This document shows, one piece after another, positions 54,495 through 59,270 of a DNA stretch of 60,534 nucleotides. Every line of letters starts with the position of its first letter. Position 1 is the first letter of the stretch. The notes under the pieces are model-generated. The model was not told the origin of the DNA. It worked only from the letters and a program-made list of their open reading frames with translations, and ran no database searches. The translations under genes were made by a program, and so were the position numbers. The stretch spans positions 319,482 through 380,015 of the forward strand of contig NZ_UEGO01000031.1 of the NCBI RefSeq assembly GCF_900465345.1, read 5' to 3'. Source of the DNA: Asaia bogorensis (GTDB lineage Bacteria; Pseudomonadota; Alphaproteobacteria; Acetobacterales; Acetobacteraceae).

Positions 54495-54531
54495 TGTCTC
54501 ATTCCTTTTTCGGATCACGCCACATGATTTC

Positions 54532-54585
54532 GGGAATATTTTTCCCACATATCAGGCAACGCATGTGAGTGGGAAAAAACTTCCC
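54532..54585. promoter_or_regulatory. Two identical-pattern palindromes in the yqeY-carA divergent promoter region
   Basis: GGGAATATTTTTCCC (54532-54546) and GGGAAAAAACTTCCC (54571-54585) both follow GGGAA-N5-TTCCC and start 39 bp apart, near four helical turns. The second is 75 bp before the carA ATG; the first is 38 bp before the yqeY start. They look like a dyad operator pair for one regulator; the HTH at the N-terminus of CarA is a candidate. Confidence 0.6.
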
Positions 54586-54659
54586 AATCTCGTCTCAAGG
54601 GCTTATCTAGCACCAACCACGCGAGCGTCCGAGTGGAAAAGGACGCAAGGGAGACGGGT

Positions 54660-56012
54660 ATGGATATCGACGAGATCATCGAGAAGGCCGGTGGCGCCGA
54701 GGCGCTGGCGAGCCTGACCGGCGTTGGCACCGAGGCCATTCGCAAATGGCGCCAGTCGCGTGCCATTCCCGGCAAGCACTGGGCCGCATTGCTGCGCCTG
54801 CCCGGCATTTCCCTTTCGGACCTCGATCCGCAGACGCCTCAGGAGGAAACCCCGACAATGACAGAGACCTGCCCTGACGGCGCGAATGCCGCCCTCGTTC
54901 TCGCTGATGGCACCGTTCTGTGGGGCGTCGGCTTTGGCGCCCATACGGATGGCGCAGCCATTGGCGAGCTCTGCTTCAATACCGGCATGACCGGCTATCA
55001 GGAGACGCTCACCGACCCGTCCTTCGCCGGGCAGATCGTGACCTTCACCTTCCCCCATATCGGCAATGTCGGCACGAACGCCGAGGATGACGAGGCCCAG
55101 CGCGTGGCCGCACGTGGCGTGGTGGTGAAGGAAGACGTTACCCTGCCCGCCAACTGGCGCTCGACCCAGAAGCTCGCGCAGTGGATGATCGGCCAGAACC
55201 TGCCTGGCATTGCCGGCATCGACACACGCCTGATCACCCGCCGCCTGCGCGATGGCGGCCCGCAGACTGCCGTGCTCGCCTTCCCGAAGAATGGCCAGTT
55301 CGACCTCGCCGCCCTGCGCGCCCAGGCCGTTTCATGGCCCGGCCTTGAAGGCATGGATCTGGCAAAGGATGTGACCTGCGCCCAGAGCTATAGCTGGGAT
55401 CTGGGCGTGTGGCAGAAGCCCGCTGCCGAGCGCAGCACGCGCCGCCGTGTGGTCGCTGTCGATTATGGCGCCAAGCGCAACATCCTGCGCTGCCTCGTGA
55501 CCGCAGGCTGTGATGTGACGGTGGTGCCTGCCACCGCAACGGCCGAGGAAATCCTGCGCCACAATCCTGAGGGCGTGTTTCTCTCCAACGGCCCCGGCGA
55601 CCCGGCGGCAACCGGCGTTTATGCGGTGCCCGCCATCAAGGGCGTGCTGGATGCCAATATCCCGGTCTTTGGCATCTGCCTCGGTCACCAGCTTCTGGCG
55701 CAGGCACTTGGAGCAAAGACCTTCAAGCTGGAGCGCGGCCATCGCGGCGCGAACCAGCCGGTCAAGGACCTCGCCTCGGGCCGCGTGGAGATTACGAGCC
55801 AGAATCACGGCTTTGCAGTGGATGACAAATCCCTGCCCGAGGACGTGATCATCACCCATACCAGCCTGTTCGATGGCTCGAATGAGGGTATCCGCAGCAC
55901 GAAGCTCGATGCCTTCTCGGTTCAGTATCACCCCGAGGCCAGCCCCGGCCCGTCGGATTCATTCTATCTCTTCGAGCGTTTCGTCGCGCTCATGGACAAG
56001 AAGGCAGCCTGA
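54660..56012 (+). CDS. carA: Carbamoyl-phosphate synthase small subunit with N-terminal helix-turn-helix domain
   Basis: 450 aa. Residues ~67-450 are a complete CarA: N-terminal domain with GELCFNTGMTGYQETLTDPS, then the class I glutaminase with Cys340 in FGICLGHQLLA and SVQYHPEASPGP. It releases ammonia from glutamine for CarB. Residues ~1-55 are extra: IIEKAGGAEALASLTGVG, TEAIRKWRQSRAIP, LLRLPGISLSDL, a YdaS/Cro-like helix-turn-helix. The ATG at 54660 has AAGGGAG 6 nt upstream. Met67 (54858), with AGGAGG 11 nt upstream, could give a normal 384-residue CarA, so two products are possible. Confidence 0.93.
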   Translation: MDIDEIIEKAGGAEALASLTGVGTEAIRKWRQSRAIPGKHWAALLRLPGISLSDLDPQTPQEETPTMTETCPDGANAALVLADGTVLWGVGFGAHTDGAAIGELCFNTGMTGYQETLTDPSFAGQIVTFTFPHIGNVGTNAEDDEAQRVAARGVVVKEDVTLPANWRSTQKLAQWMIGQNLPGIAGIDTRLITRRLRDGGPQTAVLAFPKNGQFDLAALRAQAVSWPGLEGMDLAKDVTCAQSYSWDLGVWQKPAAERSTRRRVVAVDYGAKRNILRCLVTAGCDVTVVPATATAEEILRHNPEGVFLSNGPGDPAATGVYAVPAIKGVLDANIPVFGICLGHQLLAQALGAKTFKLERGHRGANQPVKDLASGRVEITSQNHGFAVDDKSLPEDVIITHTSLFDGSNEGIRSTKLDAFSVQYHPEASPGPSDSFYLFERFVALMDKKAA

Positions 56013-56015
56013 TCC

Positions 56016-59000
56016 ATGCCGAAACGTACAGATATCTCGTCGATCCTCATCATCGGCGCTGGCCCTATCGTGATCGGTCAGGCCTGTGAATTCGATTACT
56101 CCGGCACGCAGGCCTGCAAGGCGCTGAAGGAGGAAGGCTATCGCGTCATCCTCATCAACTCCAACCCGGCCACCATCATGACCGATCCGGGTCTGGCCGA
56201 TGCCACCTATGTCGAGCCGATCACCCCGGAATTCGTCGAGCGCATCATCCTCAAGGAAAAGCCTGACGCGGTTCTGCCGACAATGGGTGGCCAGACGGCG
56301 CTCAACGCCGCCATGGCGCTCGACAAGTCGGGCTTCCTCAAGAAGCATAATGTCGAGCTGATCGGCGCCAATGCTGAAGTCATCGACCGCGCCGAGGACC
56401 GTCAGAAATTCCGCGAGGCCATGGACGAAATCGGCGTGGAATCCCCGCGCAGCACCATCGCCCACACGCTCGAAGAAGCCCGCGCGGCGCTGGAATCAGT
56501 GGGCCTGCCCGCCATTATCCGCCCTTCCTTCACCATGGGCGGCGCCGGTGGCGGCATTGCCTATAACCGTGAGGAATTCGACCAGATCGTGGCCGGCGGT
56601 CTCGATGCCTCCCCCACCACCGAGGTTCTGATCGAGGAATCCGTGCTGGGCTGGAAGGAATTCGAGATGGAAGTCGTCCGCGACAAGGCGGATAACTGCA
56701 TCATCGTCTGCTCCATCGAGAATATCGACCCGATGGGCGTGCATACGGGTGACTCCATCACCGTTGCCCCGGCCCTGACGCTGACCGACAAGGAGTATCA
56801 GAAGCTCCGCGATATCTCGATCGCCTGTCTGCGCAAGATCGGTGTCGAAACCGGCGGGTCGAACGTGCAGTTCGGCATCAACCCCGATGATGGGCGTATT
56901 GTCGTCATCGAGATGAATCCGCGCGTGTCACGCTCTTCCGCGCTGGCCTCCAAGGCAACGGGTTTCCCCATTGCCAAGATCGCAGCCAAGCTGGCTGTGG
57001 GCTACACGCTGGACGAACTCGCCAACGACATTACCGGCACGACGCCTGCCAGCTTCGAGCCGACCATCGACTACGTTGTCGTGAAGATCCCGCGCTTCAC
57101 CTTCGAGAAATTCCCCGGTGCCCCCGCCCTGCTCTCGACCTCGATGAAGTCGGTGGGTGAAGCCATGTCGGTTGGCCGTTCCTTCGCCGAGGCCCTGCAG
57201 AAGGGTCTGCGCTCGATGGAAACCGGGCTGACGGGCCTCGATCCTGTCGAAGCGCCGGGCGATGGCTCGCTCGATGCCTATCGCGCTGCGCTTTCCGAGC
57301 CGCGCCCCGAACGTATTCTCATGGCCGCACAGGCCATGCGCGCCGGACTTTCGCTTGAGGACATCAACGCCGCCTGCCGTTTCGAGCCGTGGTTCCTGCG
57401 CCAGCTCCACGACATCGTGGTGTCAGAAAACGAGATTGCCGCCAATGGCCTGCCGCAGGATGCTCGCAATCTGCGCCGCATCAAGGCGCAGGGCTTCTCC
57501 GACCGCCAGCTTGCCCGCTTGACGGGACAGAGCGTCGAGGAAGTGACGACATTCCGCCTCAAGCTCGCTGTGACGCCCGCCTATAAGCGCATCGATACCT
57601 GCGCGGGCGAGTTTGCTTCTGACACGCCTTACCTCTACTCGACCTATGAAGGCGGGTTCGGTGTGCCGGAATGCGAAAGCCGTCCGACGGACCGCAAGAA
57701 GATCGTGATCCTCGGTGGCGGTCCCAACCGTATCGGTCAGGGTATCGAATTCGATTATTGCTGCGTTCATGCCGCCTATGCGCTGCGTGAGGCCGGGTTC
57801 GAGACCATCATGGTCAACTGCAACCCCGAGACCGTCTCGACCGATTACGACACTTCCGATCGTCTCTATTTCGAGCCGCTGACCGATGAGGATGTGATCT
57901 CTCTCATCCGCACCGAGCAGGCTGGTGGCGAGATTCTGGGCTGCATCGTGCAATATGGCGGCCAGACCCCGCTGAAGCTGTCCCGTGCGCTGGAAGCCGC
58001 CGGCATCCCGCTGCTCGGCACCCCGGCTGACGCCATTGACCGTGCGGAAGACCGCGAGCGCTTCCAGGCCCTGCTGCGCAAGCTCGGCCTGCGCCAGCCC
58101 GAGAACGGCATTGCCCGCACCCCGGGTGAGGCCGAGGGCGTCGCTGAAAAGGTTGGTTACCCTGTCGTGGTTCGTCCGTCCTATGTGCTGGGTGGCCGCG
58201 CGATGGAGATCGTTTACGACCCGGCAGGGCTGCAGCGTTACCTGCGCTCCACCCTCCTGCTGGCGGGTGCCGAAGTCGCCAATGGCCCGATCCTGCTCGA
58301 TCGCTATCTGAACGACGCCATCGAAGCCGATGTGGACTGCATCTGCGACGGTCAGGATGTCTATGTTGCAGGCGTGATGGAGCATATCGAGGAAGCCGGC
58401 ATCCATTCCGGTGACTCTGCCTGCTCGCTGCCGCCTTATACACTCTCACCGGCTATCGTGACCGAGCTGAAAGCCCAGACCGAAGCCATGGCCCGTGAGC
58501 TTGGCATTGTGGGCCTGATGAACGTGCAATACGCCATCAAGGATCAGGAAGTCTTCGTGCTCGAGGTGAACCCGCGCGCCTCGCGTACGGTGCCCTTCGT
58601 TGCCAAGGCGACCGGCGTGCCGGTGGCCAAGATCGGGGCCTGCGTGATGGCAGGGGCCAAACTCTCGAGCTTCAAGCTCGATGGCGACGCCATCTCTCCG
58701 CACGTGGCTGTCAAGGAAGCTGTCTTCCCGTTCCATCGCTTTGCCGATACCGACACCATTCTCGGTCCGGAAATGCGCTCCACGGGTGAGGTTATCGGTC
58801 TCGACAGCAGCTTCGAGCGCGCTTTTGCGAAGTCGCAGCTTGGTGCCGGGGTGGTTCTGCCCCAGTCGGGTGCGGTGCTTCTTTCGGTGCGCGACGGTCA
58901 CAAGACGCAGGTTCAGGCACTTGGACGCAAGCTGATCGAAATGGGTTTCAGCATTCTCGCCACACGCGGCACGGCTGCCCGCCTTGAAGAGGCAGGCATT

Positions 59001-59270
59001 CCCGTCAAGCGCGTGAACAAGGTGCTGGAAGGCCGCCCGAACTGCGTGGACGCCATCCGCTCGGGTGACGTGCAGCTGGTCATCAACACGGCGCAGGGCG
59101 CCCAGGCCGTGCGCGACAGCTTCGATATCCGTCGCTCCTCGCTGCTTGGCGGTGTGCCGCATTTCACCACCCTTGCCGGGGCACGTGCGGCGATCTATGC
59201 CATTTCGGCCATCAAGGATGGCGGGCTGGATGTGGCGCCCCTCCAATCCTACTTCAAACGCGCTTTCTGA
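56016..59270 (+). CDS. carB: Carbamoyl-phosphate synthase large subunit
   Basis: 1084 aa. Two ATP-grasp halves: the first with [21 protein letters not shown] and [17 protein letters not shown], the second beginning [20 protein letters not shown] and [19 protein letters not shown]-terminal MGS-like domain (residues ~940-1084, [16 protein letters not shown]) is the allosteric part. With CarA it makes carbamoyl phosphate for pyrimidines and arginine. Only 3 bp separate it from carA, so they are one operon. A hairpin follows at 59299-59318. Confidence 0.98.

Follow-up and report, generated by a model that had tools for sequence, protein, structure and literature searches.

The small CPSase subunit encoded in the window, as we call the whole 60,534-nt stretch of the Asaia bogorensis contig NZ_UEGO01000031.1 analyzed here, is a CarA protein with an in-frame N-terminal helix-turn-helix (HTH) head, and we consider it probable, at roughly 80%, that this HTH-CarA is a trigger enzyme whose paired head would bind two dyads located upstream of the gene and regulate the carAB operon, most likely by repression. 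Judged from comparative sequence analysis, HTH-CarA very likely controls its own gene.

The fusion gene (54660..56012, + strand) is an intact open reading frame of 450 amino acids. Residues 3-56 (54666..54827, +) form a Cro/YdaS-like HTH, recognized by a match to the NF046037 (carph-isopro) family with an E value of 1.3e-19 and by the predicted fold, and a variable linker (residues 57-76; 54828..54887, +) connects it to the CarA body (residues 77-450; 54888..56009, +), which matches the profiles of the CPSase small chain and class-I glutamine amidotransferase. In a profile search, the CarA domain spanned residues 77-446, with an E value of 1.2e-134 and a score of 448.8 bits against the cut-off of 307.35 for the equivalog-domain model TIGR01368, so that the protein qualifies as a CarA. 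Residues C340, H424, and E426, which we take to be the catalytic residues of the glutamine-hydrolyzing CarA, are invariant in 49/49 proteins compared. A long open reading frame 3' of carA (56016..59270, +), named by eye, encodes the large subunit, CarB, and is assigned to the same operon by its position. Among the 80 of 345 loci kept, the closest named relatives of the window locus are Asaia species. The in-frame HTH-CarA fusion claimed in the first-pass annotation is thereby confirmed by the intact reading frame, by the matches to NF046037 and TIGR01368, and by the protein-level selection on the head described below.

The head had also been described as Cro- or YdaS-like, and both profile and structure comparisons bear this out. 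When residues 1-66 alone were compared with HTH families, NF046037 scored 70.1 bits (65.4 bits with the whole protein), above its curated cut-off of 38, which makes the head a member of this family. The Pfam models YdaS_toxin (PF15943; E value of 5.3e-6, 26.6 bits, under the gathering score of 30) and P22_Cro (PF14549; E value of 5.2e-4, 20.2 bits, under the gathering score of 30.2) also gave matches, and by sequence the HTH is related to both, yet it is a member of neither by Pfam's own rule. The name carph-isopro appears to mean carbamoyl-phosphate and isopropylmalate synthase, going by the fusions seen. AlphaFold2 modeled the 58-residue HTH alone with a mean pLDDT of 91; in the model of full CarA, ten-residue blocks up to residue 50 reached pLDDT values of 84-95, and residues 58-66 of the linker fell below 50. 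The predicted helices span residues 3-10, 13-20, 24-33, 38-44, and 52-55, the third of which (TEAIRKWRQS; 54729..54758, +) is, from the HTH fold, the putative recognition helix. In a Foldseek search, the top match of the predicted head was the Xfaso 1 Cro protein (3bd1; TM score of 0.84, rmsd of 1.3, E value of 0.014), followed by N15 Cro, the structure of which has been solved with operator DNA (TM score of 0.63), whereas YdaS ranked 48 in the list (TM score of 0.67). The head is thus predicted to have the helical fold of Cro-like repressors.

As judged by substitution patterns, the head is under strong purifying selection at the protein level. Between the window sequence and four close relatives, pN of the HTH is 0.008-0.033 vs. 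a pS of 0.21-0.35, and the CarA body is similar. Across 41 family proteins, the mean pairwise identity is 0.61 for the HTH, 0.81 for the recognition helix, 0.24 for the linker, and 0.72 for CarA. The head is also widespread, being in frame with CarA in 153/158 of the Acetobacteraceae loci examined, a sample that was drawn from part of the family genomes found and consists of 30, 2, 30, and 16 loci from successive searches (one set of 30 being the best matches of genomes picked as low-scoring or unlisted) and 80 regions, mostly one or two per genus. Because pN is far below pS and the frame is maintained in 153/158 loci, the head is neither a chance extension nor the product of a mis-called start. 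All 200 Acetobacteraceae genomes searched gave some match at an E value of 0.001, and in 6/46 family genomes that were searched again, a CarA match at an E value of 1e-20 was not found.

The five exceptions among the 158 loci differ in kind. Locus L139 is cut by a contig end and is uninformative on the head; L159, L160, and L163 encode family CarA without a head; and in L130/L404, both head and dyads are present, with the HTH in a frame other than that of CarA, near a C/G homopolymer, which suggests an assembly error or a natural split rather than loss of the head. A survey of CarA N-termini had been proposed as a check of the fusion, and results speaking against it were exceptional (3/158 without the head and 1/158 with the head in another frame). 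Outside the Acetobacteraceae, all 27 loci of the class that were read encode CarA without a head. In a CarA tree of 124 of the 185 rows, built from few columns and weakly resolved, these 27 outside-family CarAs fall among the family rows on weak forks, which precludes a reliable tally of head gains and losses, a single gain included. HTH matches elsewhere in the class were considered as further CarA fusions and rejected, those read being mitofilin-like proteins, HisZ, PyrB, ArgB, and others; similarly, a match running across a stop in one genome was considered as an unfused HTH gene, but reading the sequence showed none.

It had further been suggested that the cell makes both a DNA-binding and a plain form of the enzyme, the latter from Met67 (ATG at 54858..54860, +) with its own AGGAGG. 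This Shine-Dalgarno candidate is present at 54841..54846 (+), and an internal start near Met67 finds statistical support in the linkers of the family: a Shine-Dalgarno sequence precedes 70/115 of the in-frame linker ATGs vs. 601/4255 of the non-ATG linker codons, both counts coming from related sequences that are not independent. These figures make a second start at Met67 plausible, but the predicted short form would not be universal because 62/153 loci have no in-frame linker ATG. From Met67 or its equivalents, up to 70/153 of the species examined may also make a shorter CarA, which would lower the share of the DNA-binding form. Even odds can be given to the alternative that only the long form is made and that the Met67-like ATGs are relics of the original carA start. 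Besides the loci without a linker ATG, in 21 of the 91 loci that do have one none bears a Shine-Dalgarno sequence, and in 80/91 the nearest linker ATG is 10-21 codons upstream of CarA residue 77, a possible starting point for an unfused CarA. The enrichment of Shine-Dalgarno sequences at linker ATGs argues against this alternative, as does the observation that, by a similar test, just 49/153 first starts have such a sequence.

Two 17-bp dyads lie upstream of the fusion gene in the window, the putative distal operator CGGGAA-TATTT-TTCCCA (54531..54547) and the putative proximal operator TGGGAA-AAAAC-TTCCCA (54570..54586), 39 bp apart from center to center and sharing the motif TGGGAA-N5-TTCCCA. 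The segment 54532-54585, proposed earlier as DNA for a binding assay, contains nearly all of both. With two or fewer mismatches allowed, the full motif is present within 400 nt upstream of 142/153 HTH-carA genes, compared with an average of 2.1 and a maximum of 19 for 59 dyads with permuted arms, and the 11 genes without the full motif have variants of the same dyad, mostly of the CGGAA type. The exact core GGAA-N5-TTCC was found within 320 nt upstream of 150/153 HTH-carA genes (average of 1.8 in shuffles), and the core with up to one mismatch was found in 153/153 (average of 26.4), the controls being 10 rounds of dinucleotide shuffles, with plain shuffling as the fallback for incomplete dinucleotide walks. 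Within the 200 nt upstream, the exact core reaches a density of 7.79 per kb (238 in 30,569), vs. 0.008 per kb downstream (2 in 252,822). Two dyads are present in 140/153 HTH-carA upstream regions, 37-44 bp apart in 121 of those 140. A pattern with a 4-nt spacer was rejected, since its 48 sites vs. 68 for the backward control do not exceed chance; the spacer is in fact 5 nt long.

The dyads follow the head. At the 27 HTH-less carA genes outside the family, the full motif was found in none and the exact core within 320 nt upstream in none (1/27 with up to one mismatch), and the three HTH-less family members L159, L160, and L163 likewise have neither the full motif (0/3) nor the exact core (0/3), with a one-mismatch core in L163. 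L159 and L160 are a sister pair, and L158, sister to that pair, keeps the HTH and two exact dyads; L163 is placed elsewhere in the tree. These loci would therefore represent two apparent co-losses of head and dyads, one in L159/L160 and one in L163. A cognate site that is conserved with its regulator and lost with it is what is expected of a trigger enzyme, and this is the pattern seen here for the exact core (150/153 vs. 0/27 and 0/3). Covariation between recognition helix and operator was considered as strong support as well and set aside: CCGGAA-type dyads accompany 7/8 loci with the helix sequence RKWRS vs. 2/143 RKWRQ loci, with 11 more mixed, but the six RKWRS rows in the tree form one clade and hence count as one event (L161 and L225 are outside the tree), and L161, with RKWRS, keeps TGGGAA.

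The exact full dyad has a single copy in the window's genome, the proximal dyad at carA. Among the matches listed, there are six other one-mismatch sites in this genome, away from carA, and at two or fewer mismatches, 70 dyad sites vs. 60 for the backward control. These counts give no indication of a wider regulon, and because of the one exact genomic copy and the near-background number at two or fewer mismatches, the site that follows the head appears to serve a single promoter.

By eye, a weak candidate promoter can be discerned at 54581..54609 (+), with TTCCCA (54581-54586) as the -35 element, a 17-nt spacer, and TATCTA (54604-54609) as the -10 element; the -35 candidate, a poor match, is the end of the proximal dyad. 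For Gluconobacter oxydans 621H, a map of transcription start sites has been published (PMC5756330). In the mechanism that we propose, the Cro-like heads would be paired either through CPSase oligomerization or through the head itself, and the paired heads would bind both 17-bp dyads upstream of carAB, thereby regulating that operon. Repression over activation is our preference by about two to one, as the proximal dyad and the likely -35 element overlap, and repression would then consist in covering this element at the proximal dyad. The regulation may also be coupled to CPSase effectors. In Escherichia coli, CPSase with UMP is described as essentially heterodimeric, and tetramer formation is promoted by ornithine (PMC6245113); if the same applies here, the number of heads, and hence the grip on the paired dyads, would depend on the oligomer state. 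Should UMP break the oligomer, simple repression would give pyrimidine feedback the wrong sign, and activation would fit better.

We also weighed the reading that HTH-CarA binds the dyads but is an activator of carAB, which might, for instance, recruit polymerase while bound at the distal site, and consider it rather unlikely. The poor -35 candidate TTCCCA would suit an activated promoter, and the sign would be sensible if, as reported for the E. coli enzyme, UMP breaks and ornithine builds the oligomer (PMC6245113), but the proximal dyad covers the -35 candidate, and in many family members, the distance from the start of this dyad to the HTH coding sequence is no more than about 35-45 nt, a position suited to a repressor.

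Heads of the same family are found on other enzymes, two of which allow a comparison with HTH-less relatives. In another class of the phylum, 13 loci encode LeuA (2-isopropylmalate synthase, identified by eye) with an N-terminal HTH, and the head is present in 11 of the 71 genomes that gave a match (80 searched). The dyad TTAGAC-N5-GTCTAA, with two or fewer mismatches, is located upstream of LeuA in 9/11 HTH-bearing vs. 0/17 HTH-less cases (average of 0.22 and maximum of 2 in 60 arm permutations), and with three or fewer mismatches, in 10/11 vs. 1/17. The controls derive from 60 matching headless genomes, which yielded 19 loci, of which 18 were entered and 17 parsed, their HTH-less status resting on the alignment start position. 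In one family, PyrB (aspartate carbamoyltransferase) carries an N-terminal HTH at three loci, each preceded, at a distance of some 60 nt, by a perfect TTGCG-N5-CGCAA dyad; allowing one mismatch, this dyad was found upstream of 3/3 HTH-bearing vs. 0/5 HTH-less genes, in a sample where 2/11 genomes gave no match and one locus was unparsed. The geometry of the dyad, 6-5-6 over 17 bp, is the same for CarA, LeuA, and PyrB; the letters differ. Together with the co-occurrence and the apparent co-loss, these parallels support the earlier suggestion that the upstream DNA is the likely target of the CarA head. That the dyads are instead read by another transcription factor, with the CarA HTH serving protein contact or oligomerization, is improbable in view of the apparent co-loss of head and dyads in two lineages, the 27 HTH-less carA genes without the exact core or full motif, the single exact genomic site with a background count at two or fewer mismatches, which is unlike a regulon, and the enzyme-specific 17-bp dyads of HTH-bearing LeuA and PyrB.

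NF046037-type heads are also attached to HisZ, PyrB, ArgB, pyruvate dehydrogenase E1, CoaBC, GlmU, a crotonyl-CoA-reductase-like dehydrogenase, and mitofilin-like proteins (names beyond Pfam were assigned by eye). In a blind test on 22 other HTH-enzyme promoters, perfect 17-bp dyads were found in 7, vs. 5 for 16-bp controls, and most of these other fusions seem unconvincing when taken one by one; given the HTH-less controls, dyads are claimed for LeuA and PyrB only.

Several individual cases deserve a record. Three HisZ loci of one family have two ATTCAT-N5-ATGAAT-like dyads about 39 bp apart upstream, without an HTH-less control, and four further loci encode HisZ-like proteins with an N-terminal HTH. 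Five ArgB-like amino acid kinases with an N-terminal HTH are preceded by dyad-like repeats discerned by eye, again without an HTH-less control. At seven loci, the head is joined to pyruvate dehydrogenase E1, CoaBC, GlmU, a crotonyl-CoA-reductase-like protein, or an NAD(P)H-hydrate epimerase/dehydratase-like protein, several of them named by eye. Many of the NF046037 matches in the class, ten of them recorded here, are the N-termini of apparently membrane-anchored mitofilin-like proteins, on which a DNA-binding-like head is odd; the Pfam Mitofilin domain was tested and found for one of these (L253) only. Finally, a 4.6-kb contig of the window's genome, perhaps a small mobile element, contains two weak matches to the NF046037 family.

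We lean slightly toward a broader reading, in which a Cro-like head would have been attached repeatedly to pathway enzymes across Proteobacteria (CarA, LeuA, PyrB, ArgB, HisZ, and others), yielding single-promoter autoregulators with their own 17-bp operators, and in which the internal start of CarA would add an HTH-less isoform and so set the regulator-to-enzyme ratio. If true, enzymes would have a general, modular way of becoming self-regulating. The presence of the NF046037 head on LeuA, PyrB, ArgB, and HisZ suggests a reusable design, with pairs of enzyme and operator that could be read from genomes.

The domain architecture (NF046037) and the existence of transcription-regulating enzymes (PutA, BirA, and PepA) are already known; what is new, as far as literature searches reach, is the operator, along with its apparent loss together with the head and the parallels in LeuA and PyrB. 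The window HTH is a member of NF046037 by score, and this family provides a domain name only, without a function or operator; a literature search found no paper on the carph-isopro head or on the function of HTH-CarA. The DNA-binding domain of PutA is a ribbon-helix-helix, and the HTH of BirA is a winged HTH. PutA is described as a proline dehydrogenase that directly represses its own put operon (PMC6978683) and, as a metabolic enzyme acting on its own operon, resembles HTH-CarA, for which repression is proposed; it differs in its catabolic role, HTH-CarA being a biosynthetic enzyme with a Cro-like HTH. BirA, according to the source cited, is both biotin ligase and repressor, with an N-terminal HTH on an enzyme that controls its pathway (PMC4016012); the N-terminal HTH is shared with HTH-CarA, whereas the enzyme is another one and the genes controlled are those for biotin. 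Phage Cro and YdaS resemble the CarA head in its predicted fold but are free-standing phage or prophage proteins, unfused to enzymes.

Carbamoyl phosphate supplies the synthesis of arginine as well as that of pyrimidines. Several separate regulators act on carAB in E. coli, and a bacterial family whose enzyme itself bears the head that reads DNA would have a minimal form of feedback loop. Because the oligomer state of CPSase shifts with UMP and ornithine in E. coli, such a loop would be directly testable. The E. coli carAB promoter is reported to be controlled by PepA, ArgR, PurR, RutR, and IHF, with PepA as a trigger enzyme (PMC6245113). The two systems are thus alike in that control is exerted at the promoter, in E. 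coli partly by a trigger enzyme, and they differ in that the E. coli regulators named in that account never include CPSase itself (PMC6245113), the enzyme that in the Acetobacteraceae would carry its own DNA-reading head.
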